In this document: positions 154 to 23,980 of the stretch, one piece after another
How the letters are laid out: each line of letters starts with the position of its first letter
Position numbering within the stretch: the stretch's first letter is position 1
Assembly: GCA_025774865.1 (NCBI GenBank)
Contig: JALGZO010000673.1
Span: 1 to 32,452, forward strand
From: a bacterium
GTDB lineage: Bacteria > ARS69
Reading direction: 5' to 3'
Length of the DNA: 32,452 bases
The notes under the pieces: model-generated
Seen by the model: the letters and a program-made list of their open reading frames with translations, nothing else
The model's database searches: none
Told to the model about the DNA's origin: nothing
Made by a program: the position numbers and the translations under genes

Positions 154-2085
154 TCAGTCGGCACCGGTATCGCCCGTCGAGCTGCCGGACTCTCCGGCCT
201 CGGCCGCCACAACCAGCTCTTCGAACATTCCCGGGTCCGCCCAGTCGCGGTGACAGAAGACGCAGTTCCCGCGGCTCGTGGGAAGCGCGGGATCCTCCTT
301 CTTCTCCTGCTCCCGGAGACGATGACACTCCAGACAGCTACCGTGCATGGCGTCCTTGTATCCGGGCGCCAGGTGGGCGAACCCCTTCTTCTCGTAGGAC
401 GCGAGCCCCACCATGTTCTCCCGGTGGCACTTCACGCAGGCCTCGTACGTCTCCCGGCGATCCGACAGGTCGGCGGCGAGGAATTCCCGGCGATCCTCCT
501 CCTTCTCGAAACGCTCTTCGTGCTGCACCATCCGGAACATCGGCGTGGGCACCTCCATGTCCAGATGGCAGCGACGACAGCTCGTGTTGTTGTCGGCCGG
601 ATAGTTCAGGTGGTGGCACTTGATGCACGTCTCCTCGACCTTCTCGAACTCGTAGACCTTCAGGAACTCCTCCTGATGCTTCTTGTGATCGAAGGCCGTG
701 ACCATGCCGTTACGGTTCGCGTCCAGACTGAACTTCGTCCGCATCTCGTCATTTGCGATCACGGCCGGATTCACCGGCTGGCGAATGGGTTCGAACGCGC
801 CCGTCGCCTGGGTCTTCAGCGCGGCCCACGTGATCGGCGTGAAGAGCACCGCGATCCGGACGAGGCGCCACACGAAGGCCCCGGTCACCTCCTTCCCCTC
901 TTCCCGCGTCCAGACGTCCCCCGGTGGCTCGTGCCCCGGCGCGTCGCCGAAGCGTCCCGCGTCATCGATGACGTGGAACCGCTCCAGAAGGAAGAAGAAG
1001 ACGAGGCCGACGATCGCCAGCACCCCGAAGCTGATCACGAGCTCACTGACGTTCGGGAAGTAGACCGCGTTCGACGATCGAAAGTAGCCCACGATCCCGG
1101 TGTCGATCCGGTGCATCGCGAGTCCGAGGAACGCGCTGACGCCGGCGACGGTCAATCCCGCCGTGCTGCGACGCATCTTCGGCCGGGAGAAGAGCACGAC
1201 CGGGATGATGGCCTGGAGGAGGATCTCCACGAAGAAGACCCGGCTCTCCCACGTCTGGTCCGGACCGAACACGAAGTTCCACTTGCCGTTGACCGTGAAG
1301 TCGGCCGTCCGGATCACCGCGTAGATCGCCAGGAGCCACGCGCTTCCTTTCGCCAGGCCGGACAAGACCGCCGGATCGTTCGGACGCCCGTACAGCCGGC
1401 CCGTGAAGAGCATCAAGAGGATGATCGTCGCGATCCCGCCGCCCATCGCGGAGACGAGAAACTCGGGTGGAATCCAGAGGCTGAACCACAGCGGGTGAAG
1501 CCGCGTCGGCGAGGCCATGAAGATCGAGCCGAGCGAGCTGTGGTGCATCGTGGAGAGCGTGATACCCAGCACGACGAACGGTAGCATCCGCTCGTGCATC
1601 CAGTGCGTGATCTTCTTCAGGGGAAATCGCTCGGTGACGATCGGCACGAGCTCCAGCGCCGTGACACCCCAGTACATCGACACGCACCAGAACACTTCGA
1701 AGAGGAACGAGTGTGGGTTCCACATGAAGAAGGGATGCCATCCGCGGTGCGGCAGCCCGATATCGAAGATGAGCGCGAAGAGGCTCGAGCCGTAACCGAG
1801 GAACCCGACGAGCACGCTGACTCGCGCCACGGGCCGGTACCGCTCCATCTGGAAGATGTAGATGATCGAGGCGACGACGAACCCGCTCGTGGCGAGCGCC
1901 GCTCCCGCGACCATGTTGAATACCTTCCACCAGCCCCATGGCAGCGCGTCCATCATGTTCGTGGAGGCACCGAGGCCGAACGCGAACCGTCCGATGCCCG
2001 CGACCATCCCCGCGATGGCGAGCGCCCAGAGAACGTCCTTCATCGGCTGGAGGAGTCGGCTGCGTCCGGTCACCATTCGGGGCAT
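154..2085 (-). CDS. NrfD/HybB-type polytopic quinone-interacting membrane subunit fused to a C-terminal pentaheme cytochrome c domain (HmcC-like)
   Basis: 643 aa; hydrophobic NrfD/HybB-like N-terminal part, then C-terminal CIKCH, CRRCH, CVKCH, CLECH, CVFCH (5 CXXCH). Starts 2 bp after the upstream ferredoxin gene. Confidence 0.85.
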   Translation of the reverse strand: MPRMVTGRSRLLQPMKDVLWALAIAGMVAGIGRFAFGLGASTNMMDALPWGWWKVFNMVAGAALATSGFVVASIIYIFQMERYRPVARVSVLVGFLGYGSSLFALIFDIGLPHRGWHPFFMWNPHSFLFEVFWCVSMYWGVTALELVPIVTERFPLKKITHWMHERMLPFVVLGITLSTMHHSSLGSIFMASPTRLHPLWFSLWIPPEFLVSAMGGGIATIILLMLFTGRLYGRPNDPAVLSGLAKGSAWLLAIYAVIRTADFTVNGKWNFVFGPDQTWESRVFFVEILLQAIIPVVLFSRPKMRRSTAGLTVAGVSAFLGLAMHRIDTGIVGYFRSSNAVYFPNVSELVISFGVLAIVGLVFFFLLERFHVIDDAGRFGDAPGHEPPGDVWTREEGKEVTGAFVWRLVRIAVLFTPITWAALKTQATGAFEPIRQPVNPAVIANDEMRTKFSLDANRNGMVTAFDHKKHQEEFLKVYEFEKVEETCIKCHHLNYPADNNTSCRRCHLDMEVPTPMFRMVQHEERFEKEEDRREFLAADLSDRRETYEACVKCHRENMVGLASYEKKGFAHLAPGYKDAMHGSCLECHRLREQEKKEDPALPTSRGNCVFCHRDWADPGMFEELVVAAEAGESGSSTGDTGAD

Positions 2086-2086
2086 G

Positions 2087-2974
2087 TCATTCCTCTTCGC
2101 TTCCGGGCGTCTCGTCCGGCCTTCCGTCGGCCGCCTCCCGCGCCCGCTCGGCCATCAACCGCTGGCGGCGCCGCAAGAACCACGCCCCGACGAGCCCCGC
2201 CCCCACCGTGAAGAACTGCACCGGCGTCACGAGAACCCAGCTGTGCAGCAAGTGGGGGATGGATTCGGTCTCGAGTGACGGCACCCGCATCTTCGCGAAC
2301 TCCGCGGACGTCGGGATCCGCAGGGCGTCGTTCAGTGGCACGTCGCTCAGGTAGATCACGGACGTCCCGCCGAACTCGCGCTCGCCGTACACGTGGTCCT
2401 GATAGAGGTCCGGCTGCTCGGCGATGCGGCGCTTCGCCTCCTCCAGAAGCTTCTCGCGGGGACCGAAGACCGTGGCCCCGGTCGGGCACGCCGCGGTGCA
2501 CGCGGGCACGCCGCCCTCCACGCGGCACTCGTCGTTCATCTTGCACTTGCGAACGAAGGGCAGGGCTTGATCGTACTCGTAGCGCGGAATCATGAACGGA
2601 CACGCGAGCATGCAGTAGCGGCAGCCGATGCACTTGTCGGCGTCGTACTCGACCGCGCCGTCGGGCGACTTGGAGAACGCTCCCACCAGGCACGCCGACT
2701 GGCATGACGCCTCCCGGCAGTGCAGACACTGCCGGCGGACGTTTCGCCAGGTTCCTTCCTCTTTCCCCGGGATCCGCACGATGGACGTGTACCGGCGCCC
2801 GGACAGCCCGTCGTCGGCCCGGTAGCGGGTCGGGATCTCACGGGGAAGCTTGTTTTGAACGACGCACGCTTCTACGCACCGCTCGCAGCCGATGCACTTC
2901 GTCACGTCCGTGAGGATCGCCTTCTCGGGGCTCACCTTTCCGGGACCGGCTTCCTGCGTTTGCGGTGTGCTCAC
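2087..2974 (-). CDS. HybA/HmcB-like multi-[4Fe-4S] ferredoxin subunit with C-terminal TM anchor
   Basis: CIGCERCVEAC, CLHCREASCQSAC, CIGCRYCMLAC and further Cys pairs; hydrophobic segment SWVLVTPVQFFTVGAGLVGAWFL near the C-terminus. Confidence 0.88.
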   Translation of the reverse strand: MSTPQTQEAGPGKVSPEKAILTDVTKCIGCERCVEACVVQNKLPREIPTRYRADDGLSGRRYTSIVRIPGKEEGTWRNVRRQCLHCREASCQSACLVGAFSKSPDGAVEYDADKCIGCRYCMLACPFMIPRYEYDQALPFVRKCKMNDECRVEGGVPACTAACPTGATVFGPREKLLEEAKRRIAEQPDLYQDHVYGEREFGGTSVIYLSDVPLNDALRIPTSAEFAKMRVPSLETESIPHLLHSWVLVTPVQFFTVGAGLVGAWFLRRRQRLMAERAREAADGRPDETPGSEEE

Positions 2975-2995: not shown

Positions 2996-4504
2996 TCAGA
3001 GACCGAGGTTCGGGTTCACGGGTTCGATCCGGAAGTAGTCCTCCCACGTCTGCGGCCCGGCGCCGAGCTGGACGTGGCACTCGAGACAGAGCTTCCGGTA
3101 GGCGTCGTCGTAGCCGGGGGCCTTCGATCCCACGGCCGCGCTGCCCGGCACCGGACCGCTCTCGCCGTGGCACTTCGAGCAGGCCTGGATGCGTTCGGCC
3201 TCGCCGGTCCAGGCCGCGGCCGCCTTCGTCGCCGTCACGGGCAATCCGTCGTGCTGGAGGATTCCGTGGTGACAGTTGCGGCACGAGAAAGACCAGCTGA
3301 CCGCGTGGTCCCGGTGGTTCCAGGCGAATCGGCCATCCGGCCCTTCGTAGACGTAGACGTTCACGTCTTCCCGCTCCGTCGCCACGGCGTGCCAGGAGAG
3401 AAGGCCGTTCTCTTTCTCCTGGTGGCAGCCGAGGCATCTCTTCCGCAGCGCCTCCGCGACCGGCGGGTTGTCGTAGAGACCGGTGCCGTGACAACGGTTG
3501 CAGGACATGTGCGGCTGTTCGATCGCGGCGTCCGCGTGGTGGCACTTCACGCACTCCATGCCCTCGCCGTACTGCGCGTGGCGGTCGTGATCCCAGAGCA
3601 CGAGCCCCACGTCCAGGTCGGCGAGCAGCGACGGGTCCGGCTCGTGACAGTCGTTGCAGGCCACCGGCAGATCCTCCGGGCCGCCCGCGAAGTCCGTACG
3701 GTGGCACTCCGCGCACCGCTGGTGGACCGCCTGCTCGAGCGCGGGCCGCTGCACCTCGGTGTCGACGACCCATCCCCCGTGACAGTCTTTGCAGGTCCGC
3801 CGATCCTCCTCGGGGTTCGCGACGACGTGACAGCGCCCGCATTCCCCATGCTTCGCCTGCTCGTGAGATTTCTGCCCGGTGGCGAGCAACAGCCCTTCTG
3901 TCGCTGCCGTCTCGTGACACGCGGAGCACGCGCGATAGTCTGCCTCGGACTGCGCCTCCTCGTCCTGGTGATGGCATGACAGGCAGCGTTCGTGCAGCGT
4001 CGCCGCCCCTTCGATCTCGTAGCGGCGCGCGTGGGCGTGGTGGTCCCAGCGCACGAGCCCGTGCAACCCCGAGAACTCCTGCGCGTGGCAGTCGCGACAG
4101 CCGACCGGACCGGCCTGCATCGCCGTGTGACATCCGAGGCACCGCCCGTGGTACGCGGTCATCGGCGGTGGACCGTGGTCGTCGCCGTACTCCGGCGTCT
4201 CGACTTCGACCCCGTGGAACCCGGCCAAGAGGACCGCGTCCTGGTTCGTCTGCGTCTGGTGACAATCGCGGCACGGCCGAGGCTCCTGGACACCCGCCCG
4301 CTCCTGATGGTGACAAACCTGACAGTTCGCGATGTCCTTCATCCGGGCGTGCATCTCATGGTTCCAGACGACGTTGCCGAACCGCGACGGCAGAACCATG
4401 TCCGGTTCGAGCGCGGGACGAGCCAGGTAGGCGAACACGCCCACGCCGATGGAGAGGAAGAGACCCGTGATCAGGAGCGTGAGCGGGATGCGCCGGCGTC
4501 TCAT
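2996..4504 (-). CDS. 16-heme multiheme cytochrome c (HmcA-like), N-terminal signal/anchor
   Basis: From ATG at 4504 (MRRRRIPLTLLITGLFLSIGVGVFAYLARPAL...) I count 16 CXXCH motifs. The ATG overlaps the upstream stop (ATGA). The 573-aa ORF extension to 4717 is probably spurious. Confidence 0.9.
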   Translation of the reverse strand: MRRRRIPLTLLITGLFLSIGVGVFAYLARPALEPDMVLPSRFGNVVWNHEMHARMKDIANCQVCHHQERAGVQEPRPCRDCHQTQTNQDAVLLAGFHGVEVETPEYGDDHGPPPMTAYHGRCLGCHTAMQAGPVGCRDCHAQEFSGLHGLVRWDHHAHARRYEIEGAATLHERCLSCHHQDEEAQSEADYRACSACHETAATEGLLLATGQKSHEQAKHGECGRCHVVANPEEDRRTCKDCHGGWVVDTEVQRPALEQAVHQRCAECHRTDFAGGPEDLPVACNDCHEPDPSLLADLDVGLVLWDHDRHAQYGEGMECVKCHHADAAIEQPHMSCNRCHGTGLYDNPPVAEALRKRCLGCHQEKENGLLSWHAVATEREDVNVYVYEGPDGRFAWNHRDHAVSWSFSCRNCHHGILQHDGLPVTATKAAAAWTGEAERIQACSKCHGESGPVPGSAAVGSKAPGYDDAYRKLCLECHVQLGAGPQTWEDYFRIEPVNPNLGL

Positions 4505-4956
4505 CGCGACACCCGCCGCAGGATGCGTGCGACGAACGGGGTCAGCCGTGGGTCCCCGGCGGCCCGCCGGTCGACCCACCGGAGGACCCCGAAGGCGAGA
4601 GCCGCGCCGGATACCGCACCCAGAAACGCCGCCGCGTCCGCGACCAGTCCGGAACTCGTCGGCAGCGTTGTCCCCACGATCGCCCCCGCGACCATCCCGA
4701 GAAGCGGTACCACCCACACGAGAAGCGACAGCCGCAGCAGGCCGTGCTGGGGGAGGTCGAGCTCGACCGTGTCACCGGGTTCAGCGCCGACCGCGTTCCG
4801 GACCGTCACGATCTCGACGCAGGCCTCGGGATCCGGGAGCGTGCACGTGCTCGCCTCGGAGCAGCCCGTGCACGCCGAGCCGCGCGACGTGGAGACATCC
4901 GCGAGGGACCCCTGCGCCGAGACCACGACGCCGACCGAAGTGCTGCTCGCCTTCAA
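4501..4956 (-). CDS. RseC/MucC-family protein (SoxR-reducing system RseC-like)
   Basis: KASSTSVGVVVSAQGSLADVSTSRGSACTGCSEASTC... with Cys-rich N-terminal region and two hydrophobic helices; likely TTG start at 4956 preceded by AGGGAGGG. Confidence 0.75.
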   Translation of the reverse strand: MKASSTSVGVVVSAQGSLADVSTSRGSACTGCSEASTCTLPDPEACVEIVTVRNAVGAEPGDTVELDLPQHGLLRLSLLVWVVPLLGMVAGAIVGTTLPTSSGLVADAAAFLGAVSGAALAFGVLRWVDRRAAGDPRLTPFVARILRRVSR

Positions 4957-4982
4957 TGTCGCAATCCCTCCCTTCGCATGAG

Positions 4983-7124
4983 CTAGACGTCCGGCGAGAC
5001 GCGCATGAACTCGGCGAGGTGCTCGCGCAATCCCCGCCCGTTCGTGTGGTGGTCGCGCTCGACGTCTTTGAAGAAGCAAAGCGTCCCACATCGCATGCAG
5101 CGATTGGCCTCTGCGCGCATCAAGTCTTCGGTCACGACGAGGTCGACCTCGTCGAACGTGTGGATCCGTTCCTCGACCGGAAGCTCGGGGTGGCGCGTCG
5201 CGGGCAGCTGCTCGACGCCGTCGATCTCGACGGCCCGTGACTCTTCGAGAGGCGTGGGGCCCTTGAACGTGCCCGGCGGCATCCACGGCTTCTCTCCGTT
5301 GAGAAATTGATGGATCGAGCGCGCCGCACGACGGCCGCTCCCCACGGCGTCGACCAGCAGCGCGGGGCCGGTCCAGAGGTCGCCACCCGTGAAGATGTTC
5401 GGGACGTCGGACTGCAGCGTTTGTTCGTCGGCCTGGATCGTGTTCCACTTCGTGACCTTCAGCCCCCGCTCCTTCAGGTCGTCTGTGTACCAGTCGGGCA
5501 ACGGCTTCTGACCGATCGCCGCGATCACGACGTCCACGTCCATCATGGTTTCGGAGCCCTCGATCGGGACGGGACGCCGCCGGCCGGAGTCGTCCGGCTC
5601 GCCGAGCTCCATCCGCAGGAACTCGATTCTCCGGAGCTTTCCCTCCTCGTCACCGAGGAGTCGCGTCGGCGCGGCGAGGAAGTGGTACTTCACGCCTTCC
5701 TCCTCCGCCGCCACGATCTCGACTGCGTTCGCCGGCATCTCCTTGCGCGTCCGCCGGTAGAGAAGCGTGACCTCCGACGCCCCCATTCGGAGAGATGAGC
5801 GACAGGCGTCCATGGCGGTGTTGCCGCCGCCGACCACGACGACCCGCTGCCCGGAGAGATCCACGTGGATGCCGAGCTCGCGCTTCTCGAGGAACTCCGT
5901 CCCCTTCCACACGCCATCCAGGTCCTCTCCGTCGCAGCGGAGCGACGAGTTGTCCCAAGCGCCGAGCGCGATGAGGACCGCGTCGAACTCCGACTCGAGA
6001 TCCTCGATGAAGAAGTCCTTCCCGAGCCCGAGCTCGACGCGCGTCTCGACCCCCAGGTCGAGAATCTCCCCGATCTCGACGTCCAGGACCTTCTTCGGCA
6101 GGCGGTACTCGGGGATGCCGTAGCGCATCATGCCGCCGAGCTCCGGTTTGGATTCGAAGATCGTCGGGTGATGGCCGAGGCGGCGCAGGAAGTACGCAGC
6201 GGTGAGCCCACAGGGCCCTCCGCCCACGATCGCGACCTTCTTGCCGGTGCTCGGCAAGACGAGGGTCGGGCGGCGCTCCGAGACGTTCATCTCCCAGTCG
6301 GCGCAGAAGCGCTTGATGTAGTTGTGGTGGACCGGCTCGTCGTCGATCGCGACCCGGCGGCACCCGACTTCGCAGGGGGCCGGGCACACCCGCCCGCAGA
6401 TCAGCGGCAACGGATTGCGTTCCTTCACGACGTTGATCGCTTCGGCATAAAGGCCGTTCGAGGCGAGATCCACGTAGCGAGGGATGTCGATCTGAGCCGG
6501 GCAGAGCTGAGCGCACGGTGCATGACATTCGCCGACGGCATTGAAGTGCAGCAACCGCTCGCTCAACTTGAAGACCTTGATGATGTTCGTGGGACAGACC
6601 TCCTCGCACTTCCCGCAGCCGACGCACTTGTCCGCGACGACGATGGGGAAGCCCTCGTCGCCCCGCTCCAGCGCGTCGAAGGGGCACTCGCGCACGCAGG
6701 TCCATCCACCCAGGCAACCGTTCTGACACGTGATGTCGCCGCCGAAGAGCTCGAACATCGAGCGGCAGTCGAGTGCGCCGTCGTAGCGGTATTTGCGGTC
6801 GGCGCGGTCCCCTCCGGCACAGCCGTGGATCGCGACGCGAGGCTCCGCGCTGCCCGCTGCCCCGCCGAGGATCCCGGCGACCCTCGCGGTCGTGTCGCTG
6901 CCGCCGGCGATGCACGCGTCGACCGAGGCCTTTCCGGCCACCATCGCCTCTGCGCACGCGGAGCAGCCCGAGAATCCGCAGCCACCGCAGTTCGCGCCCG
7001 GGAGCGCGTCCTCCACCTCCGCGATGCGCACGTCGACGTCCACGTGGAAGACCCGTGCCGCCACTGCCAGCACGCCGGCCGCCGCGAGCCCGATGCCTGT
7101 CATGATGATTGCCGGTTCGTACAT
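4983..7124 (-). CDS. rnfB: RnfB fused to a GltD/NfnB-like FAD/NADPH oxidoreductase module
   Basis: N-terminus MYEPAIIMTGIGLAAAG then LPGANCGGCGFSGCSACAEAM (RnfB Fe-S domain), CQNGCLGGWTCVRECPFDAL, CVGCGKCEEVCP; then GltD-like GECHAPCAQLCPAQIDIPRYV, KVAIVGGGPCGLTAAYFL (FAD) and VVVVGGGNTAMDACRSSLRMGASEVTLLYRRTRKEMPA (NADPH). ATGA overlap with rnfA. Confidence 0.9.
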   Translation of the reverse strand: MYEPAIIMTGIGLAAAGVLAVAARVFHVDVDVRIAEVEDALPGANCGGCGFSGCSACAEAMVAGKASVDACIAGGSDTTARVAGILGGAAGSAEPRVAIHGCAGGDRADRKYRYDGALDCRSMFELFGGDITCQNGCLGGWTCVRECPFDALERGDEGFPIVVADKCVGCGKCEEVCPTNIIKVFKLSERLLHFNAVGECHAPCAQLCPAQIDIPRYVDLASNGLYAEAINVVKERNPLPLICGRVCPAPCEVGCRRVAIDDEPVHHNYIKRFCADWEMNVSERRPTLVLPSTGKKVAIVGGGPCGLTAAYFLRRLGHHPTIFESKPELGGMMRYGIPEYRLPKKVLDVEIGEILDLGVETRVELGLGKDFFIEDLESEFDAVLIALGAWDNSSLRCDGEDLDGVWKGTEFLEKRELGIHVDLSGQRVVVVGGGNTAMDACRSSLRMGASEVTLLYRRTRKEMPANAVEIVAAEEEGVKYHFLAAPTRLLGDEEGKLRRIEFLRMELGEPDDSGRRRPVPIEGSETMMDVDVVIAAIGQKPLPDWYTDDLKERGLKVTKWNTIQADEQTLQSDVPNIFTGGDLWTGPALLVDAVGSGRRAARSIHQFLNGEKPWMPPGTFKGPTPLEESRAVEIDGVEQLPATRHPELPVEERIHTFDEVDLVVTEDLMRAEANRCMRCGTLCFFKDVERDHHTNGRGLREHLAEFMRVSPDV

Positions 7125-7699
7125 CAGATCATTCCCTTGAACGCGTAGAAGGAGAGGGCCATGAGGCCGGCGGTCACGAGCCCGATACCGGTTCCCTGCA
7201 TCGGCTTCGGGACGTGCGCCGTCTCGAACCGCTCCCGGATGCCCGCGAAGAGCACCAGCGCCAGCCCGAAGCCGGCTGCCGATGCCGCGGAGAATACGAT
7301 GGTTTCGAGCAGGTTGAGCTCTTCCTGGACATTGATGATCGCGACGCCCAGGACCGCGCAGTTCGTCGTGATGAGCGGCAGGAAGATTCCCAGCGACTTG
7401 TAGAGGGTGGGAATCGACTTGCGAAGGAACAGCTCGACGAACTGCACGAGGGTCGCGATGACGAGGATGAACGCGAGCGTCCGCACGTAGCCGATGCCGA
7501 TCGGGATCAGGAGGAAGCGGTCCACCGCCCACGTGATCACACCCGCCAGCGTCAGCACGAAGAGGACCGCGCCGGACATGCCGACGGCGGTGTCCATCTT
7601 CTTCGAGACCCCGAGGAACGGACAGTTCCCCAGGAACCTCGCCAGCAGGATGTTGTGGATGAACACCGCGCCGATGACGAGCTCGAGGTAGTGATCCAT
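7124..7699 (-). CDS. rnfA: RnfA, electron transport complex membrane subunit
   Basis: MDHYLELVIGAVFIHNILLARFLGNCPFLGVSKK and LITTNCAVLGVAI: both membrane Cys motifs conserved. Confidence 0.95.
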   Translation of the reverse strand: MDHYLELVIGAVFIHNILLARFLGNCPFLGVSKKMDTAVGMSGAVLFVLTLAGVITWAVDRFLLIPIGIGYVRTLAFILVIATLVQFVELFLRKSIPTLYKSLGIFLPLITTNCAVLGVAIINVQEELNLLETIVFSAASAAGFGLALVLFAGIRERFETAHVPKPMQGTGIGLVTAGLMALSFYAFKGMI

Positions 7700-7709
7700 T
7701 GCCGACCCC

Positions 7710-8360
7710 CTAGCTCGTCTTCGACGGGAAGAGGTTCATGATGCCGAGCAGGAGCCCGAGTGCGACGAATGCTCCGGGCGCCTGCGCGAAGAACGCGAAC
7801 GGCTCGGCGAGGAACACCCTCTCGCCGAAGAAGAGAGTCAAGGTCCCCGCTCCGAAGAACTCGCGCACGGCACCCAGCACCGTCAGCGCGATCGTGAAAC
7901 CCAGTCCCATCCCGAGCCCGTCGGCGATGGAAGGAATCAGCCCGTTCTTTCGCGCGAACGCCTCGGCCCGGCCGAGGATGATGCAGTTCACGACGATCAG
8001 CGGGATGAAGAGCCCCAGGCTCTCGGAGAGCTGGAAAAAATACGCCTTGGTGATCATCTCCACGCAGACCACGAAGGTCGCGATGATCACGATGTACGCC
8101 GCCACCCGGACTTCGTTCGGAATCACCTTGCGTAGAGCCGAGACCAGGAAGTTCGAGCAGACGAGAACGAACGTCGCCGCGATCCCCATGCCGAACCCGT
8201 TCTCGGCGGTCGTGGTCACCGCGAGCGCCGGACAGAGTCCCAGCACGAGCCGGAAGGGCGGGATGTCGGTCCAGAGTCCCTTCGTGAACTCGCGCGCCAC
8301 GGCGGCGGCGCTCATCCGCGGGCGGACGGGAACGGCGATCGGCACGGACGGCGCGCTCAC
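7710..8360 (-). CDS. rnfE: RnfE, electron transport complex membrane subunit
   Basis: LVLGLCPALAVTTTAENGFGMG and LIVVNCIILGRAEAFA motifs. Confidence 0.95.
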   Translation of the reverse strand: MSAPSVPIAVPVRPRMSAAAVAREFTKGLWTDIPPFRLVLGLCPALAVTTTAENGFGMGIAATFVLVCSNFLVSALRKVIPNEVRVAAYIVIIATFVVCVEMITKAYFFQLSESLGLFIPLIVVNCIILGRAEAFARKNGLIPSIADGLGMGLGFTIALTVLGAVREFFGAGTLTLFFGERVFLAEPFAFFAQAPGAFVALGLLLGIMNLFPSKTS

Positions 8361-9010
8361 GAGACACCTCCTGGCTCATCCTCGTCCACCCGCAGCGCCT
8401 CCAGATCGTCGCGGATCGCGGCCTCGTGCTCCCTGAATTTCGTCATCGCCGCGTCCACCGCGTCGGCGACGGCGCGGCTGGAAACCGTTGCTCCGGTGAT
8501 CGCGTCGATGGCGCCGCCGTCCTTCTTCACTTTGAACATGGTGTCACCGGCGAGCCCCGCGAACTGCTCCGTGAACGCCTCCTCCCGCACCCGCGTGCCC
8601 ACGCCGGGTGTCTCGCTCATCGTCGTCACGCCGACGCCGGTGACTCCCATCGACGCGAGGTCGACGCCGACCATGACCCCGACGTCGCCGCCGAATCCCT
8701 GGCCCGCGCCTTCCAGCGCGACCGCGGCCGGGCGCCCGTCCTGCTTCAGCACGAAGAACAGGAGTGGACTCCTTTCGCCGATCTCGACGAGGTGCTTCTC
8801 CGCGAGGAGCTCCTCTTCGAGACCGAGACGATCCTCGGGACCGATCTCCCGACCCATCGCTTGATAGATGTCCACCACGGCGGGGATCTTCTTGAACTTG
8901 AGCACGTTGTTCGCGGCGAGCTCGTACGTCGCCTCGTGAAGCGCGCCGAGGGACAGCCCGCTTCCGAGCGTGATCAGGCCGAGCACGAGGAGCATGCGCG
9001 TGGAAGTCAC
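8357..9010 (-). CDS. rnfG: RnfG, FMN-binding subunit
   Basis: GTG start at 9010 (VTSTRMLLVLGLITLG...), C-terminal covalent-FMN motif DAITGATVSSRAV; overlaps rnfD and rnfE. Confidence 0.92.
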   Translation of the reverse strand: MTSTRMLLVLGLITLGSGLSLGALHEATYELAANNVLKFKKIPAVVDIYQAMGREIGPEDRLGLEEELLAEKHLVEIGERSPLLFFVLKQDGRPAAVALEGAGQGFGGDVGVMVGVDLASMGVTGVGVTTMSETPGVGTRVREEAFTEQFAGLAGDTMFKVKKDGGAIDAITGATVSSRAVADAVDAAMTKFREHEAAIRDDLEALRVDEDEPGGVS

Positions 9011-9969
9011 GGGGTCACCGCCTCCTGCCGCCGGATCCGGAACCGATCGAGCAACGGGGTCAGGATGTTCATCAGGATCACCGCAAACGGTACGGCGTCG
9101 GCCCAGACCCCGAAGCCTCGAATCAGGACGATCAGGAACCCGAGTCCGAAACCGTAGAGCCACATCGCGCGACGGTTCGCCGGCGAGCACGTGGGATCGG
9201 TGGCGAGGAAGAACGCCGCGAGGAACACGTGGCCCTTCAAGAACTGGTCGCCGAAGCTCCCCTCCAGGCGCCCGGCGAAGAGGAGCGCGAAGACCGCGAC
9301 GCCGCCGAGAACCCCCAGGGAGATCTGCGGTCGGATAACTCCCCGCGCCCAGAGGAAGAGACCGCCGAACGCGGTGAGCAGGACCGAAGTGGATGTGGCC
9401 GACGCGACGCTTGCCATCCCGACCGGGTAGATCCAATGAGGCCACGACAGAACGAGGACCAACCAGCCGATGACGGCGGGGTGCATCGGGTAGCTCCCGA
9501 TGCCGCCGAAGAGCTGCTTGCCGAGGAACACCGCGACCACGACTCCGATCAGGAGCACCCAAACCGGAACCGTCGGCGGTAAGAGGAGCGCCAGCAGAAC
9601 TCCCATGAGAGCCGCGTGGCCGTCGAGCGCCCGATAGGGCTGGCGCATCGCGATCTGCGAGAGGTACTCGACCAGAACCGCGAAACCCGAAGCCAGCGCG
9701 ACCGTCCCGAGAATCCCGAGCAGCCAGAGCGGACCGGTGTCGATTCCCATCTCGACCGCCAGCATCTTCACGATCGGGCCGAGCGAGCCGACTCCGGCGT
9801 CGGCCGGATCGAGAACGGCGGCTTTCGGCCCGAACGCGTGTCCGATGGCCCCGAAGAGCGCGGTCGGCATCAGCGCCAGCACCGTCAGGTGGTGAGCGCG
9901 CGTGAGACCGCGACGCGCTCGTACATGCGGAGCGGCTCCGACGGTGTAGTGAGTGGAGGGATCGGGCAC
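9007..9969 (-). CDS. rnfD: RnfD, membrane subunit, lacking the usual covalent-FMN loop
   Basis: LDGHAALMGVLLALLLPP, GKQLFGGIGSYPMHPAVIGW, FFLATDPTCSP, PFAVILMNILTPLLD match RnfD; the region between SWPHWIYP and GGLFLWARG is very short. Confidence 0.9.
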   Translation of the reverse strand: MPDPSTHYTVGAAPHVRARRGLTRAHHLTVLALMPTALFGAIGHAFGPKAAVLDPADAGVGSLGPIVKMLAVEMGIDTGPLWLLGILGTVALASGFAVLVEYLSQIAMRQPYRALDGHAALMGVLLALLLPPTVPVWVLLIGVVVAVFLGKQLFGGIGSYPMHPAVIGWLVLVLSWPHWIYPVGMASVASATSTSVLLTAFGGLFLWARGVIRPQISLGVLGGVAVFALLFAGRLEGSFGDQFLKGHVFLAAFFLATDPTCSPANRRAMWLYGFGLGFLIVLIRGFGVWADAVPFAVILMNILTPLLDRFRIRRQEAVTP

Positions 9970-9973
9970 GGCG

Positions 9974-11344
9974 TCAGTCCTTGGTCACGGTGGCGACGGG
10001 AACGGCGATCGGGTCCGGCTCGCGCGGAGCCGGGGTGGGACCGGCGGTGTCGTCGGCGACGATCGCGGCCGTCGCGGCGATCTCGCGCTTGGCGAGTCGG
10101 ATGTGTTGGAGGATCGGACGCCGGGCCGGACAGACGGTGGCGCAGAGTCCGCATTCGATGCAGTCGTCCAGGCCGTAGTCAGGCGTCCGGTCGAAGAGAC
10201 TGAACTCCGCGAAGCGCGTCAGCTGGTGAGCCGGAAGTTTCTCCGGACACACGTCGAGGCACCACCCGCAGTTCACGCAGGGCTCATCGCTCCAGTCGCG
10301 GAACGTGCCCTTCTTGATCAGCATGAGCGCGTCGACGGTGGCGTCGACGGCCGCATCGAGCGAGTACTGCGCGAGCCCCCGGAATAGCCCCCCGGTCACG
10401 ATCTTGTCGCCGGGCTCGGGCTCGACACCGGCCGCGGCAAACACGTCGCCGAGGCGCGTGCCCATGGAAACGCGGAAGTTGCCGATCGACGCGCCGGAAG
10501 AGTCGAGGATCGTCACGACCCGGCTCGAGGGAACCCGACCGAGCTCGACGGCACCGAGGGCCGCGAGGGCGCGGGCGAGCGGGATGACGGCCGGCCGCGC
10601 GCCCTTCACGCGGACGCGGCGCGCGACCGCCTCCGGGAGCGTCGCCGGATACTCGGCGGCGAGGGGCAGGATCTCGATCCCCGCGCCAGCGGCCGCCATA
10701 CGGATCGCCGCCGCCCGCGCTTCGAGGACGGCGAGGACCGGCCGGTCGGCGCCAGCGAGGCGCGCCACCAGGAGGGTCGCGCGGGCGGCCGCGCTCGGAT
10801 CGTCCAGCAGAAGACTGAGCGCCGCCGTGATCCCGGGCTCGGGGTCGGCGGCCAGGACGACGACGGTATCGGCCGCCTCCGGCAGCTCGAGCTGAACGCC
10901 GGCCTTCCGCAAACGAACCCGAAGATCGTCGACCGAGGCGCAGCTCGGGTCGAGCGGCGCGAACGCTGTGTCGCCGTTGCCGGCGGGCTCGAGGAGGACC
11001 GCGAGCCCGGGCTTTCCGCCCCGGACGTCGGGCGCCTGTTTCACGCCGGCGATCCTGCCCGCCGTGGGGCTCGGGACGATGGGGAGGTCGCCCACGGTGC
11101 CGAGAGGCTGCCCGGCGGCGACCTCCTGGTCCGCCGTCACCGATGGCGACAGCCGCGGTCCGCTCACGTCGGAGCGTCCCAGAAAGATGGCGAGGGTGTC
11201 GGGAGCGGGAAGCTCGGTGAGCGGGGCTGGCTCCACCGCCAGTGGGTACCGCGCTTCCGGCACGGCGAGGAGCCGCCGGAGCAGGCGAAAAAGTCCGAGC
11301 CTGGGGCGCCCCGTCGCTCCAGGGGCATGCGCCGCCGTTGTCAA
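9974..11344 (-). CDS. rnfC: RnfC, Fe-S subunit, with eroded NADH/FMN-binding motifs
   Basis: CVNCGWCLDVCPEKLP and CIECGLCATVCPARRP, RnfC C-terminal architecture. TTG start at 11344 preceded by GAGGGGAG preferred; ORF track extends to 11377. Confidence 0.88.
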   Translation of the reverse strand: MTTAAHAPGATGRPRLGLFRLLRRLLAVPEARYPLAVEPAPLTELPAPDTLAIFLGRSDVSGPRLSPSVTADQEVAAGQPLGTVGDLPIVPSPTAGRIAGVKQAPDVRGGKPGLAVLLEPAGNGDTAFAPLDPSCASVDDLRVRLRKAGVQLELPEAADTVVVLAADPEPGITAALSLLLDDPSAAARATLLVARLAGADRPVLAVLEARAAAIRMAAAGAGIEILPLAAEYPATLPEAVARRVRVKGARPAVIPLARALAALGAVELGRVPSSRVVTILDSSGASIGNFRVSMGTRLGDVFAAAGVEPEPGDKIVTGGLFRGLAQYSLDAAVDATVDALMLIKKGTFRDWSDEPCVNCGWCLDVCPEKLPAHQLTRFAEFSLFDRTPDYGLDDCIECGLCATVCPARRPILQHIRLAKREIAATAAIVADDTAGPTPAPREPDPIAVPVATVTKD

Positions 11345-11425
11345 ACGCTCGCTCCCCTCGCGGACCCGAACGGGCAAAACAAGGAGCCCCAGCCAGCCTG
11401 CGGGCAGATCCCGGATATCCCGCCA

Positions 11426-11443: not shown

Positions 11444-11549
11444 AAGAATTCCTATATTCTAATTGTCGGGGATTCGTCCGACCGTCAAGGGTCAGCGGAC
11501 GGCGACCGGCGACCATCGGGAGCATCGGGGGACCTCGTTGAAGCAGCTC

Positions 11550-13322
11550 ATGTCGGGGAACGAGGCGGTCGCTCGGGGCGCCTGGGAAGCAGGGACCCAC
11601 TACGCGACGGGCTACCCGGGCACCCCGAGCACCGAGATCATCGAGACTCTCTCCGGGTATCCCGGCGTCACCGCGGAGTGGTCGACGAACGAGAAGGTGG
11701 CCTTCGACGTCGCCACGGGCGTCTCACTCGCGGGCAAACGGGCTCTCGTGACCATGAAGCACGTCGGCCTCAACGTGGCGGCCGACTCCTTCATGGTTCT
11801 CCCCTACTCCGGCTGCATTGGCGGGTTCGTCGTCGTCTCCGCGGACGATCCGGGGATGCACTCGTCCCAGAACGAGCAAGACAACCGCTACTTCGCGAAG
11901 TTCGGCAAGGTCCCTCTTCTCGAGCCGGTCGATCCCCAGGAAGCCAAGGACTTCGTCCGCATCGCGTTCGACATCTCCGAGCGGTTTGAAACCCCGGTGC
12001 TTCTCCGCACCACGACGCGCATCTCGCACACGAAAGGCGTGGTGACGCTCGGGGAGCCCGTGACTCCTTCCCCGAAGAGCTACGAGACCGACATCCCCCG
12101 CTTCCTCGTTCCTCCTTTCGCGCGCCGGCTCCGACCCTTGGTCGAGGAGCGGCTCGAGCGTCTGCAGGAGTTCAGCGAGAGCTTCGAATACAACCGCGTG
12201 GAGGAAGGGGATCCCGGCGTCGGCGTGATCACGAGCGGCGTGGCCTACCAGTACGCCCGCGAGGTTCTACCGCACGCCACCTACTTGCGGCTCGGGATGT
12301 CGTTCCCGTTCCCCGTCGCGATGGTGCGTCGCTTCTGCGAACGTTTCGATCAGGTGCTCGTCATCGAGGAAGGAGAGCCGTTTCTCGAGGAGTCTCTTCG
12401 CGTCAACGGAATCGACAACGTCGTGGGTAAGCAGAAGATTCCGCTCACGGGCGAGCTGAACCCCGAGATCCTGGCGCACGCGATCCACGGGACACCGCCC
12501 CCGAAGTCCTACGCCGACGAGATGCCGATTCCGCCCCGGCCACCGCTGTTCTGCCTCGGCTGCCCCCACCGGGGCGTGTTCTACGCGCTGAAGAAGAGGA
12601 TGAAGGCCGGCGTGGTCGCTCTGGGCGACATCGGTTGCTATACGCTCGGAGGGCTTCCACCGTACTCGTCGATGCAGACCTCACTCTGCATGGGAGCGAG
12701 CGTCGGGAACGCGCTCGGCTTCGCCCAGGCGACGGGAGACAACGGCGATCGCAAAGCCGTGGGCATCATCGGCGACGGCACATTCCTGCACGGCGGGATT
12801 CCAGGATTGATCGACATGGTCTACAAGAAGAGCCTGGCGACTCTCGTCATTTGCGACAACTCGACGACGGCCATGACCGGCCAGCAGCAGAATCCCGCGA
12901 GCGGCAAGACGATCGCGGGGGAGGCTGCGCCGCGCGTCGATCTCGTGCGGCTCATCGAGTCCATCGGAGTGGATTTCGTCCGCGTGATCGACCCGTACGA
13001 CATCCAGGATCTGCGTAAGACCTTGAGTGCGGCGATCCGGCACCCCGGTCCATCGGTCGTGATCGCGCGGCACGCCTGCCTGATGATCCGTGAGGAACGG
13101 GAAAAGGTGCGGGAACCGATCCGGTTCGACCCCGAGCCCTGCAATTTCTGCAAGGCTTGCTACGAGTTCGGGTGTCCCGCGATCGATTGGAGCGACGAGT
13201 CGGGTCCGATCATCGACGAGCTGCAGTGCATGGGGTGCGAGATGTGCGCCACGTTCTGCGGACCGGGGGCCCTGCAGCCGGCGGAAGCGGTCGGTCTGGC
13301 GCTGGGGGACGGGGCGTCATGA
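11550..13322 (+). CDS. iorA: Indolepyruvate ferredoxin oxidoreductase alpha subunit
   Basis: MSGNEAVARGAWEAGTHYATGYPGTPSTEI, TPP-binding GDIGCYTLGGLPPYSS / GIIGDGTFLHGGIPGL, C-terminal CNFCKACYEFGCP and CMGCEMCATFCGPGA. TTG at 11538 is an alternative start; ORF track opens at 11463. Confidence 0.93.
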   Translation: MSGNEAVARGAWEAGTHYATGYPGTPSTEIIETLSGYPGVTAEWSTNEKVAFDVATGVSLAGKRALVTMKHVGLNVAADSFMVLPYSGCIGGFVVVSADDPGMHSSQNEQDNRYFAKFGKVPLLEPVDPQEAKDFVRIAFDISERFETPVLLRTTTRISHTKGVVTLGEPVTPSPKSYETDIPRFLVPPFARRLRPLVEERLERLQEFSESFEYNRVEEGDPGVGVITSGVAYQYAREVLPHATYLRLGMSFPFPVAMVRRFCERFDQVLVIEEGEPFLEESLRVNGIDNVVGKQKIPLTGELNPEILAHAIHGTPPPKSYADEMPIPPRPPLFCLGCPHRGVFYALKKRMKAGVVALGDIGCYTLGGLPPYSSMQTSLCMGASVGNALGFAQATGDNGDRKAVGIIGDGTFLHGGIPGLIDMVYKKSLATLVICDNSTTAMTGQQQNPASGKTIAGEAAPRVDLVRLIESIGVDFVRVIDPYDIQDLRKTLSAAIRHPGPSVVIARHACLMIREEREKVREPIRFDPEPCNFCKACYEFGCPAIDWSDESGPIIDELQCMGCEMCATFCGPGALQPAEAVGLALGDGAS

Positions 13323-13876
13323 CGGAGGGGATCACGAACGTTCTGATGGCGGGAGTGGGAGGGCAGGGCGTCCTCGTCGCGGGCGAGACGCTGGCGCTCG
13401 CCGCTCTGGCGGATGGGCTCGAGGCCAAGCAGTCCGAGGTTCACGGGGTAGCGCAGCGCGGGGGAAGCGTCGTCAGTCATGTCCGGTTCGGGCCGAGAGT
13501 CCACTCGCCGCTCATTCGATGCGGCGAGGCCAGCGTGCTGTACGCCGCCGAACGCCTCGAAGCGCTTCGTTACGCGCACCACCTGAAGCCGGGTGGCAAC
13601 ATCGTCATGGATGATCGCGCGATCCAACCCATCCGGATGCCGGATGCGCCCGACACCCAGTATCCGGAAGAGGTTCCGGAGTTTCTCCGCAGCAAGCGGT
13701 ACGAGGTTCTCGTGCTCGAAGCCGTTCGCGAGGCGGAGACCCTGGGCGACAAGCGCTGCGCCAACGTGCTGCTGCTCGGGGCGCTCGCGACCCGGCTCCA
13801 GATCGGCGACGAGGCGTGGAATCTCGCCCTCCGAGAGCGGCTTCCCGCGAAGGTCCTGGAGCCGGTTCCCTCCTGA
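13319..13876 (+). CDS. iorB: Indolepyruvate ferredoxin oxidoreductase beta subunit
   Basis: NVLMAGVGGQGVLVAGETLALAAL...QSEVHGVAQRGGSVVSHVRFG typical of the gamma/beta domain of 2-oxoacid:Fd oxidoreductases; overlaps iorA. Confidence 0.92.
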   Translation: MTEGITNVLMAGVGGQGVLVAGETLALAALADGLEAKQSEVHGVAQRGGSVVSHVRFGPRVHSPLIRCGEASVLYAAERLEALRYAHHLKPGGNIVMDDRAIQPIRMPDAPDTQYPEEVPEFLRSKRYEVLVLEAVREAETLGDKRCANVLLLGALATRLQIGDEAWNLALRERLPAKVLEPVPS

Positions 13877-14853: not shown

Positions 14854-16077
14854 TCACCGGCGACGCTTCGCCGAGCTCCGCCTCCTCCTCTTCGCCGCGG
14901 CCTTTCGGGTGCTCTTGCGCGCGGTCTTCTTCTTCGCCGCTTTCTTCGTTCCCTTGGCTCCCTTGCGGGCAGCTTTCTTCTTCGCCGCTTTCTTCGGTGT
15001 GCGCTTGCGCGCAGCTTTCTTCTTCGCAGCCCTCGTCCTGCTTCTCGGCGCGGCCTGCTCGGCTCCGGTGGGGTGGTCGCCCGGTGAAAGGAGCTCGATG
15101 TCGAGCGCCTGGGTCACGAAGTGGATCGGGTTGATGATCGTGGTCCCGGGTTGTTCCTCGGTGCCCTGCGAGCCGCCGAAGAGCAAGCCGATGCACGCTC
15201 CGTCGGAGTCGTAGACGAGCGATCCCGAGTCGCCGCCGCTCGAGAACTCCTCCTCGCTCGGGGCCTGCGACACGATGATCTGGTCCACGAACGTAGCCTT
15301 CTGGAACAGGCTGTACTTGACCTGGACGGTGCCGAAGAGAGCCTGCACGAAGCCCTGCGTGTGCTCGGTAGTGCGGCCGGTCTTCTGGACGAACTCACCG
15401 AGGTCGCTCTCGTCAAGGCGACGGGGGGCCACCGGAAGCCCGGGGCCGACATCCACCGTATTCCAGAGAACGTCGCCCGGGTCGGGCGTCGCGATCGCGC
15501 AGTCCACCCGGTTCTCCGCGCCCGGCGCGAAGTCGATCGGGGCGAAACGCGTGAGCCGGGCAATCCGGTCCCGCGGATCCTGGCCGCCGTCGGCGGGGCC
15601 CGGTTGAAGGACCGGGTCGCCGATCGTGGCGTCGTTGGACTCCGCGAGCACGTGATTGTTCGAGAGGATGACCACATCGCCGGTCACCCGGTCGCGGACG
15701 AGACCGCCGAGCGTCCCCGCCGTGATGTTCACGTGCCCCACGCTGATGCCGCTCCGGGCGGGGCGTTCGCGCTGCGTGTACTCCAGCGCGTTGAAGCGGG
15801 CCGCCTGCACGTCCGTGATGAACTCGAGCACTCCGCCCTGGGCACGATCGTCGGGGACGCTGAGCGTCCGCGGAATGCGGTTCGAGAGCGGAAGCCGGCG
15901 GAGCGAGAGCTTCTCGTTCACGTAGACCACGATCGCGAGGTCTTTGAGGTTCTTGCCGGCGGTGCGCTTGCGGCCGATTGCAAAGCCGTTGATGCAGTCG
16001 CAGTGAAGAAGCTGCAGGAACTGGTTGACGCCTCGGACGAGGCGCTTGTGGTCGCGGAACGATGCCCGTGCCATCAC
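14854..16077 (-). CDS. Trypsin-like (NAL1-like) serine protease with a histone-H1-like lysine/alanine/arginine-rich C-terminal tail
   Basis: [12 protein letters not shown] (His), NRVDCAIA (Asp), [13 protein letters not shown] (Ser); about 63-aa tail [40 protein letters not shown]... No obvious signal peptide. Confidence 0.78.
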
Positions 16078-16445: not shown

Positions 16446-17981
16446 TCAGTGCTTGTGCAGATCCTTGTGCATGATCCGCCGGAACTCGGTGATCTGCTCA
16501 GGCTTCGAGAGACTGGACAGGCGCGTCGCGAGATCCCGGTCGCTTTCCTGCCGGAGCTTCTCCGCCACGAGATCGATCCAGACGGGCGCGAAGCCGCGCT
16601 CCTCCAGGAACGCTCGTCGCGCCAGCAGCCGCTCCGCCGCTTCGGCGGCACTCGCGGGGAGAGTCTCGAGCGAGTCCGTCACGCCCGCGCCACGACCTCC
16701 ACCATGGTCGACCTCGAGCGACTTCGCGCGGTCCAGCGCTTCGTCCCGAGACAAACCATCCGCGACGCACAGCGTGACCGCCGCCAGCAGCAGGTGCGGA
16801 AATGCGCTTCCGTCGGGACTGCGAAACTCGACCGTGGCTTGGGAGCGCGCGTCCGGCGGCGGGCCCGACTCCGACGGATTCATGGCCTGGTCCATCCTGG
16901 TCGCGGTGCGGAAATCGAGCGGGATCCGGATGAGGCTGGAGCGATCGTGGCGTCCCCAGCAGACGTGAGTCGGCGCTTCCTGCCCCGGGACGAGGCGCAG
17001 ATAGCTGGAAGCGACCGTGTTTCCGAACGCCGTGAGGGCGGGCGCCTCGCCCAGCAGACCGCCGATCAGCCGGAGGGCATCCTCGGAGAGTTCTCCATCG
17101 TCGTCGCGCATCGTGTTGCGTCCGTCCCGCTCCAGGGCCAGGTGAAGGTGCATTCCGCTGCCGGCCATCCCCGGCTCGAGCTTCGGCGAGTACGTGACGG
17201 ACGCGCCGTACCGGTCGGCGATCACCCGGATCAGCCAGCGGGCCACCGACACCCACGTGCCCAGGTCCTCCACCGGGACGAGTGAGAGCTCGAGCTCGTA
17301 CTGCTCGGCGCGATGTCCTTGGAGCTCCGGATTCTCGGACTCGATCTGATCCAGGTAGCCGACCTCGCCGTGGCAGTACTTGACGCTCCCGGTCACCTCG
17401 CTGACGACGCGGAGGATCTCGTCCGCGACGTCTCGGCCGTGCAGGTACGGTTCGGCCTGGTGGTAGTTGCGCTGTGCCTTGCCGGTGAAGCGATCGTCGC
17501 CTCGTTCCATGATGAGATAGAACTCCAGCTCCGCGAGGGCGCGAAGCGTGGCGCCCGTCGAGGTTCGAAGGTTCTCCACCGCCGCGGCCAGCAGGTTGTC
17601 CGGAGTCACCGGACATGGTGAACCGTCGCGACCGGCGAACCGGCAGACGATGTCCATCTCGTCGGCCGCCCACGGATTCCGGAACGCCCACCGGTAGACG
17701 GGAACGACGTACAGGTCGCTTCCGGAGGAGTCGAAGAGGCCGGGGAACAGACTGGACCCATCGACGCGCTCACCGAAGGCTAGAACGCGCTCGAGATGCT
17801 CGGGATCCACGATGGGTATGCGCAATTCGCGGAGCTTGCCGTCGAACCCGGGGTAGCGGAGGTTGATCACGCGGATGCCGTCTTCCAGCACGAAGCGCAC
17901 GAGATCCTGCCGCTGCCACCGGTCGGGCGGCTTCCGAAGGCGCCGGACGAGCGGGCGCACGTCGTGGACGGGCTCTTCCAT
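16446..17981 (-). CDS. Glutamine synthetase family protein (type I-like, divergent)
   Basis: LAELEFYLI, EQYELEL, GSGMHLHLAL, SSYLRLVPGQEAP, SSLIRIPLD, VEFRSPDGSAFPHLLLA motifs. Confidence 0.88.
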   Translation of the reverse strand: MEEPVHDVRPLVRRLRKPPDRWQRQDLVRFVLEDGIRVINLRYPGFDGKLRELRIPIVDPEHLERVLAFGERVDGSSLFPGLFDSSGSDLYVVPVYRWAFRNPWAADEMDIVCRFAGRDGSPCPVTPDNLLAAAVENLRTSTGATLRALAELEFYLIMERGDDRFTGKAQRNYHQAEPYLHGRDVADEILRVVSEVTGSVKYCHGEVGYLDQIESENPELQGHRAEQYELELSLVPVEDLGTWVSVARWLIRVIADRYGASVTYSPKLEPGMAGSGMHLHLALERDGRNTMRDDDGELSEDALRLIGGLLGEAPALTAFGNTVASSYLRLVPGQEAPTHVCWGRHDRSSLIRIPLDFRTATRMDQAMNPSESGPPPDARSQATVEFRSPDGSAFPHLLLAAVTLCVADGLSRDEALDRAKSLEVDHGGGRGAGVTDSLETLPASAAEAAERLLARRAFLEERGFAPVWIDLVAEKLRQESDRDLATRLSSLSKPEQITEFRRIMHKDLHKH

Positions 17982-21878: not shown

Positions 21879-22441
21879 GCGCGCGGAGGAAGCGCCACGC
21901 GATGATCGTCGACACGACTCTCTGTGTCGGCTGCCAGGCGTGCGTCCTGGCCTGCAAGGCGGAGAACGACGTTCCGGACGGGTACTGCCGCGATTGGATC
22001 GTGGAGGAAGTCCGAGGCGAGTTCCCCGGGTTGCAGGCGGAGATCCGCTCCGAGCGCTGCAACCATTGCAGCCATCCCCCCTGCGTCACGGCCTGCCCCA
22101 CCGGGGCGAGCCACGTGAACGAGGGGGGTACGATCCTCGTCACCCACGACAAATGCACCGGCTGCAAAGCCTGTATCTCCGCCTGCCCCTACGACGCCCG
22201 CTTCGTGCACCCGAACGGATACGTGGACAAGTGCACGTTCTGTCTGCACCGCGTGCAGCGCGGCCAGCTTCCGGCCTGCGTCGAGGTCTGCCCGACCTCT
22301 TGCCTCCACTTCGGCAACCTCGAGGATCCGGCTTCCGACGTCGCCCGGCTCCTGCGCACCCGACCCTGGAAGGTGAATCAGCCCGAGACCGGCTGCGAGC
22401 CGAACGTCTTCTTCCTGACCGGGAGGGAGCGTCATGCGTAG
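21875..22441 (+). CDS. 4Fe-4S ferredoxin subunit (PsrB-like)
   Basis: CVGCQACVLACK, CNHCSHPPCVTACPTGA, CTGCKACISACPYDAR, C-x2-C...CVEVCPTSC; ATGA overlap with the upstream gene. Confidence 0.93.
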   Translation: MSARRKRHAMIVDTTLCVGCQACVLACKAENDVPDGYCRDWIVEEVRGEFPGLQAEIRSERCNHCSHPPCVTACPTGASHVNEGGTILVTHDKCTGCKACISACPYDARFVHPNGYVDKCTFCLHRVQRGQLPACVEVCPTSCLHFGNLEDPASDVARLLRTRPWKVNQPETGCEPNVFFLTGRERHA

Positions 22442-23411: not shown

Positions 23412-23425
23412 GAAGGAGCTTCGAC

Positions 23426-23980
23426 ATGCGCCCTCGACCTTTCTGGAATCCTTACCTGGCCGGCGTCGTGCTCGGTGTCGTGCTCCTCGCCTCGTTCCTC
23501 GTGATGGGCTGGGGGCTCGGCTCGTCCGGCGCGGTCACGCGCTTCGGAGTCGGCGCCGCCCACCTGATCGCTCCCGAGGCCGTCGAGTCGAACGACTACT
23601 TCGCTCGTTACCTGGGAGACACGCACATCCTCGACGACTGGCTCGTCTTCCTCGTGCTGGGCGTCTTCCTCGGCGGGCTCTTCGGGGCCTACACGGGAGG
23701 GCGACTCCGCTCCGAGGTGGTGCGAGGCGAGGTGTTCGAGCGACAGCGCGGAAGCGGCGGAGGCCCTCGTCGGTTCGGCGTCTCCCCCCGCACGCGCCTC
23801 GCGCTCGCGCTCTCGGGCGGCGTGATCATGGGGATCGCGGCCCGCCTGGCTCGCGGCTGCACGTCTGGACAGGCGCTCACCGGCGGCGCGCTGCTCTCGG
23901 TCGGCGCGTGGGTCTTCATGTTCGCGGTGTTCGCCGGAGGCTACCTCGTGGCTCCGCTCGTGCGGAGGCAGTGGCGATGA
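23426..23980 (+). CDS. YeeE/YedE family sulfur-transport membrane protein (first half)
   Basis: MRPRPFWNPYLAGVVLGVVLLASF..., LARGCTSGQALTGGALLSVGAW; RBS GGAAGGAG. Confidence 0.88.
   Translation: MRPRPFWNPYLAGVVLGVVLLASFLVMGWGLGSSGAVTRFGVGAAHLIAPEAVESNDYFARYLGDTHILDDWLVFLVLGVFLGGLFGAYTGGRLRSEVVRGEVFERQRGSGGGPRRFGVSPRTRLALALSGGVIMGIAARLARGCTSGQALTGGALLSVGAWVFMFAVFAGGYLVAPLVRRQWR

Follow-up and report, generated by a model that had tools for sequence, protein, structure and literature searches.

An Rnf2-type complex with an NADPH-type module fused to RnfB, an RnfC lacking FMN/NADH motifs and an RnfD lacking FMN contacts: a possible one-way conduit to periplasmic cytochromes

The window (the whole stretch of bacterial DNA that was analyzed, 32,452 nucleotides) contains an rnf operon on the minus strand. 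Its six subunits are homologous to those of the canonical RnfABCDGE complexes of A. woodii, C. tetanomorphum, and A. vinelandii, and its genes follow the same CDGEAB order. The first gene is an rnfC variant (9974..11344), which is read as a protein of 456 aa from TTG; the frame is open over 9974-11377 and also gives a 467-aa reading, and the TTG at 11344 could plausibly be the start codon. It is followed by an rnfD variant (9007..9969), rnfG (8357..9010), rnfE (7710..8360; start codon uncertain), rnfA (7124..7699), and, as the last rnf gene, an rnfB fusion encoding 713 aa (4983..7124). On the same strand lie an rseC-like gene (4501..4983; Pfam PF04246; start uncertain) and genes for an HmcA-like class III cytochrome c with 16 CxxCH motifs (2996..4504), an HmcB-like 4Fe-4S protein (2087..2974), and an HmcC/NrfD-like membrane protein carrying haem motifs at its C terminus (154..2085). 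Divergent from rnfC, the plus strand carries iorA (11463..13322), which encodes the alpha subunit of indolepyruvate:ferredoxin oxidoreductase and scores over the TIGR03336 cut-off, and its neighbor iorB (13319..13876). Elsewhere in the window, we observed a gene (14854-16077) whose product has no Pfam match but shows trypsin-like motifs (SNNHVL, GDSGS) and ends in a long tail that is rich in Lys/Ala/Arg and histone H1-like, a divergent glutamine synthetase family protein (16446-17981), a set of the thiosulfate/polysulfide reductase type (PhsA-like molybdoenzyme, Fe-S subunit, and NrfD-type protein; 19665-25149) ending with a YeeE-type sulfur-transport gene (23908-25149), and an HdrA2-like flavoprotein (29231-31243) scoring 843.8 bits, below the cut-off of 1100.

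A preliminary description of rnfC had proposed that its NADH/FMN motifs are erased and that both [4Fe-4S] sites are kept, and every replacement string and cysteine motif that it quoted was found in the protein. Alignment with two canonical RnfCs, one from the window's own assembly and one from a sister genome, showed that the glycine-rich loop GLGGAAFPTHVK is missing, that INGxECEPYxTxDH has become VVLAADPEPGITAA, and that YPQGAEKML has become YPATLPEAV. According to alignments and column counts, RKAGVQLELPEAADTVVVLAADPEPGITAA (10820..10909, minus strand; residues 157-186 of the 467-aa reading) replaces both GLGGAGFPT..K and INxxECEPYxTxD. In the alignment, YPATLPEAVARRV (10613..10651, minus strand) occupies the position of canonical YPQGAEKxL, and the YPQG(A/G/S)EK segment is absent. 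All eight Cys of the two [4Fe-4S] clusters are present, in motif 1, CVNCGWCLDVCP (10244..10279, minus strand), and motif 2, CIECGLCATVCP (10127..10162, minus strand). The profile comparisons agreed with the loss: TIGR01945 (rnfC) gave 140 bits against a cut-off of 246, and a weak, sub-threshold match to Pfam Complex1_51K persisted (21.1, under the cut-off of 31.2). The AlphaFold model (pLDDT 84.8) matched best the RnfCs of A. woodii, A. vinelandii, and C. tetanomorphum (TM 0.69-0.73, normalized to query length), with NqrA chains of NQR complexes only next (TM 0.57-0.63), indicating that the protein has an RnfC fold without the FMN motifs. With the Cys present and both fold and sequence closer to RnfC, the possibility that the protein is an NqrA was ruled out.

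A full-length RnfB fusion was found in 7 of the 386 sampled genomes (G000, which is the window's assembly, and G002, G258, G222, G260, G123, and G202), which belong to six families. A SAR324 MAG is a further carrier with the same operon and the same losses, and a single-genome oddity was thereby ruled out. Seven loci with rnfC were readable, namely those of six of the seven fusion genomes and that of the SAR324 MAG. RnfC lacked all three motifs in 7/7 of these loci and in none of 28 canonical loci. The orthologues of the sister genome G002, from a different genus (48% identity), and of the SAR324 MAG (L040; 37% identity) showed the same losses, which excludes a frameshift or assembly artefact. 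In the SAR324 MAG, RnfC and RnfD form one open frame of 764 aa (L040:5838-8132). About 55 canonical RnfCs retain at least two of the three motifs; one further RnfC (L012/L185) has the glycine loop together with NGCECESF and YPQGVEN. In a tree of RnfA and RnfE, the seven fusion-type complexes formed one clade with 100% ultrafast bootstrap support. Canonical Rnf is also encoded in four fusion genomes (G002, G123, G202, and G222) and on another contig of the window's assembly, for which contamination is estimated at 8.3%.

Weak TIGR01945 matches elsewhere were considered as further FMN-less RnfCs and rejected. Many of them align only from about profile position 115, and we suspect that these belong to another RnfC-like family, PduS; a few are RnfC-like without rnfA/E nearby. 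Among the RnfC-like genes, those of G133 and G270 (L181:11361-12590 and L182:10272-11501) have no glycine loop, and no rnfA/E was detected nearby. They are adjoined by an RnfD-like gene without the FMN motif (loci L173 and L175), and the pair is possibly another reduced Rnf-like system.

Across the seven variants, 18 of the 66 near-invariant RnfC columns (conserved to 95% or more among 28 canonical RnfCs) were shared by all, and these included all eight Cys. The columns of the lost motifs were missing in 7/7, with no alternative conserved residues in their place. The NxEC part of INxAECEPY is gone, as had been claimed, but the E-P dipeptide, which was also held to be erased, stays as D-x-E-P in 7/7 variants. 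A loss of NADH/FMN chemistry from RnfC is well supported by these comparisons and by the fold model. RnfC is the fastest-diverging subunit within the clade, with a mean pairwise identity of 30% among variants versus 46% among canonical proteins, suggesting relaxed catalytic constraint. The eight invariant Cys point to a wire or an Fe-S structure, and the structural or electron-wire role suggested in the preliminary description would fit this pattern.

The fast divergence of RnfC, together with the second, canonical Rnf in the sister genome and in the window's assembly, would also be expected if RnfC and RnfD of a redundant copy were simply drifting to loss. We regard such ordinary decay as very improbable. 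The frames are open and the Cys invariant across a clade of several families, members of the clade resemble one another more closely in RnfA and RnfE than canonical Rnfs do, and the proteins have been detected by proteomics in Desulfobacteraceae (PMC5109826, PMC11887813). The retained subunits keep their redox motifs. The near-invariant columns common to all variants numbered 34/36 in RnfA and 25/29 in RnfE, compared with 16/49 in RnfD. In the window, both RnfA and RnfE have the cluster Cys of canonical Rnf, and RnfG has the flavinylation motif ITGAT, which is conserved as (S/T)GA(T/S) in the RnfG variants. RnfG flavinylation needs ApbE, and an ApbE gene is present in the genome.

The window RnfB consists of a polyferredoxin domain (about residues 1-195), which aligns to RnfB chains 7zc6_B and 9eri_B, and a C-terminal FAD-NADP(H) module of the NfnB/GltD type. 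The module contains Fer4_20, a GltD/DPD-type 4Fe-4S domain (6285..6527, minus strand; Pfam PF14691, E 1.2e-22), and a Pyr_redox_2 FAD/NAD(P)-binding domain (5334..6242, minus strand; Pfam PF07992, E 1.2e-32) in which the alignment placed a GGGNTA motif. Among solved structures, its best relatives are the chains that bind NADPH in the NfnABC and StnABC transhydrogenases, of which the window shows only the NADPH-type module, fused to RnfB. The FAD motif and the GGGNxA nucleotide motif were present in 8/8 RnfB fusions, and the GltD domain was absent from all 17 canonical RnfB-like frames found. GxGxxA is read as an NADP(H)-type motif (PMC7483475), and by this motif alone the module is predicted to be NADP(H)-specific. 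Structure prediction for the fusion gave a poor model (pLDDT 59.7), which was left out of the evidence.

Such a module could make the complex a membrane-bound bifurcating or confurcating enzyme, in which NADPH at the NfnB-like FAD would split its electrons between an RnfB-A/E-G branch to a cytochrome and the Fe-S clusters of RnfC, and RnfC would serve as a ferredoxin port, its clusters reducing or oxidizing ferredoxin. The module has an Arg (in EYRLPK) matching Arg201 of NfnL, which is discussed as tuning FAD (PMC7483475); however, this Arg is also found in homologues of other function, and the cluster motif CPxPCExxC resembles that of the NfnA/StnC NADPH modules, not NfnL. Retention of all eight RnfC Cys in 7/7 variants and the contact between RnfC and RnfB in A. 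woodii Rnf (PMC11889175) are in line with a ferredoxin port, as is the ferredoxin-producing iorAB beside the operon, although iorAB was seen in this position only in the window. On balance, we consider bifurcation unlikely.

In known structures, RnfD carries its FMN on a Thr, close to Arg130 and Glu185, riboflavin is bound with an Asp and an Asn, and the FMN is the link between RnfG and riboflavin (PMC9588780, PMC11889175). The covalent-FMN Thr of canonical RnfDs sits in (T/S)xATPL. This segment is deleted in the RnfDs of the window, G002, and the SAR324 MAG (3/7); the residue aligned to the attachment Thr is Glu or Asp in G222 and G202 (2/7), and G260 and G123 do have an aligned Thr, though no longer in a PL context (2/7). 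The columns of Arg130 and Glu185 (C. tetanomorphum numbering), with equivalence to structure positions read from the alignment, were lost in all seven variants, including the window. The riboflavin Asp is D/E in 7/7, and the riboflavin Asn is N in four and H in three. Riboflavin may persist, and the return path is therefore weakened by sequence rather than proven cut. By implication, an RnfD without its FMN contacts would interrupt the U-shaped return path.

The acidic residue kept at the riboflavin Asp position leaves room for a pump of the kind already published. Rnf2 has been described as a sodium-pumping complex linking NADH with the ferredoxin and NADP pools (PMC11887813), and in an adapted form the nucleotide site would have moved from RnfC to RnfB, ferredoxin would meet RnfC at its two [4Fe-4S] clusters, and the U-shaped path would run in reverse between the ferredoxin and NAD(P) pools. 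The presence of all six subunits agrees with such a pump. Against it stand the loss of Arg130 and Glu185 in every variant, the deleted or acidic Thr position in 5/7, and the linking position of the RnfD FMN in the known structures, and we judge the reversed path improbable.

The preliminary description lacked both the NAD(P)H module of RnfB and the loss of FMN contacts in RnfD, as read from the alignments. With nucleotide binding reappearing on RnfB and RnfD altered, the change spans the whole complex. The RnfB fusion, FMN-less RnfC, and altered RnfD occurred together in 7/7 readable loci and in no canonical locus, alongside the conserved RnfA/E and RnfG site; as the carriers form a single clade, this joint gain and loss counts as one evolutionary step or step series, not as seven replicates.

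The neighboring genes were then compared. Multihaem genes (at least four CxxCH) lay within 5 kb of 6/7 readable fusion-type operons and of 0/28 canonical loci, the canonical sample being skewed to strong TIGR01945 matches and some of its loci ending at contig edges. A truncated eighth fusion locus (L085) also has a multihaem gene beside the fusion gene, whereas none was present in the region examined around the G260 operon. In Desulfovibrio, cytochromes are known to accompany canonical Rnfs. In the window, HmcB and HmcC were the best NCBIfam matches of their proteins and HmcA was the second for the 16-haem cytochrome, for which TmcA scored higher; the HmcA, HmcB, and HmcC matches were all below their cut-offs, so the module does not reach the family-level score of HmcABC. 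Downstream of the fusion-type rnf operon of G202, we also observed NiFe hydrogenase-looking genes (L089:520-3615).

Published descriptions of Rnf2 match these features, and by its gene content the window complex is of the Rnf2 ("Tol2-type", large-RnfB) type. In Desulfobacula toluolica Tol2, RnfB has about 700 aa with NAD-binding sites, and RnfC has no NADH-oxidoreductase domain (PMC5109826). D. multivorans has both Rnf types; its rnf2 cluster includes a cytochrome, and the proteins are formed (PMC5109826). The window likewise shows a large RnfB with Pyr_redox_2 and Fer4_20, an RnfC without the NADH-oxidoreductase domain, apart from the sub-threshold Complex1_51K match, and a cytochrome gene in the cluster, and a second, ordinary Rnf in the genome is shared with Tol2, Desulfococcus multivorans, and Desulfobacterium autotrophicum HRM2. 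The erased RnfC is thus a known feature of a known type, as is the RnfB fusion. The 16-haem HmcA-like cytochrome with HmcB/HmcC-like partners differs from Rnf2 as described, and the loss of RnfD FMN contacts is the addition made here; the RnfD change is unmentioned in the main texts of PMC5109826 and PMC11887813.

Compared with canonical Rnf, the window complex lacks the FMN/NADH site of RnfC and the FMN contacts of RnfD and carries an additional FAD/NADP(H) module on RnfB; the RnfC fold is common to both. Na+-NQR resembles the window complex in two respects, reached separately: its input subunit bears an NAD(P)H module, and NqrA, its RnfC homologue, has no flavin. However, the NfnB-like module has no relationship to NqrF, the Fe-S Cys have been lost from NqrA too, and NqrB keeps its flavins and a quinone site; Pfam matching of the operon proteins gave no NqrF-type input domain (FAD + 2Fe-2S, ferredoxin-reductase type). 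In the NQR model, the RnfC site was lost when a new NADH input module was recruited (PMC4014512). This model is the closest evolutionary parallel, and the fusion clade would have undergone such a change independently, with the RnfC clusters still present. The proposed output end resembles Methanosarcina acetivorans Rnf, which does not react with NAD(P) and for which electron transfer from RnfG to a multihaem cytochrome c has been proposed (PMC4023990). Unlike the window complex, M. acetivorans Rnf has no described NADPH module on RnfB, and its rnfC match scores above the canonical family cut-off. The two-subunit NQR/RNF-like systems (PMC8238504, PMC10979944) are similar in their proposed one-way export of NAD(P)H electrons and lost RnfD-like flavinylation site, but only the D/G branch survives in them, with an NAD domain fused to it, whereas the intact branch of the window is B-A-E-G. 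The Rnf core comprises two opposite transmembrane paths (PMC8238504), and motif comparison showed the outward path kept and the return path stripped in fusion-type Rnf.

We consider it somewhat more probable than its negation that the complex is a one-way conduit from NADPH, perhaps with ferredoxin, to a periplasmic cytochrome, possibly ion-pumping, as an Rnf2-type re-wiring. More tentatively, at a little short of even chances, fusion-type Rnf would be a one-way ion-pumping NADPH:periplasmic cytochrome c (menaquinone) oxidoreductase that arose by an NQR-like re-wiring of independent origin. NADPH, perhaps with ferredoxin, would reduce the RnfB fusion at its FAD and Fe-S clusters, and electrons would cross the membrane via the [2Fe-2S] cluster of RnfA/E and arrive at the FMN that RnfG carries in the periplasm. 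As the way back through RnfD and RnfC is without FMN sites, they would exit from RnfG to a periplasmic multihaem cytochrome and not return to NAD+. In the window genome, the HmcABC-like module would receive them and may exchange electrons with menaquinone. The input end would work like NQR and the output end like the cytochrome-linked Methanosarcina Rnf. A sodium pump has been proposed at RnfA/E, with sodium transport coupled to the RnfA/E step (PMC11889175), so pumping there could survive. RnfC would be a scaffold whose two Fe-S clusters may side-feed the RnfB domain. The co-occurring changes, the kept RnfA/E and RnfG sites, the adjoining multihaem genes, the expression of Rnf2 proteins, and the ApbE gene argue for this conduit. 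Arguing against it are the invariant RnfC Cys, which suggest redox activity of a kind superfluous in a dead-end scaffold, the riboflavin that RnfD may retain, the published role of Rnf2 between the ferredoxin, NAD, and NADP pools, the cytochrome-free surroundings of the G260 operon, and the single origin of the co-occurrence.

If RnfD is truly without FMN, as the seven sequences suggest, electrons cannot take the accepted route, and export from NADPH to periplasmic cytochromes would be the function of the complex, which would then be a second example, beside NQR, of an Rnf re-plumbed through a swap of its input module. Rnf2 is reported to belong to the core genome of Desulfobacteraceae and to be abundant in all six strains studied (PMC11887813). 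Should the one-way oxidoreductase be true, the current description of Rnf2 as a link between the ferredoxin and NAD pools would be wrong.
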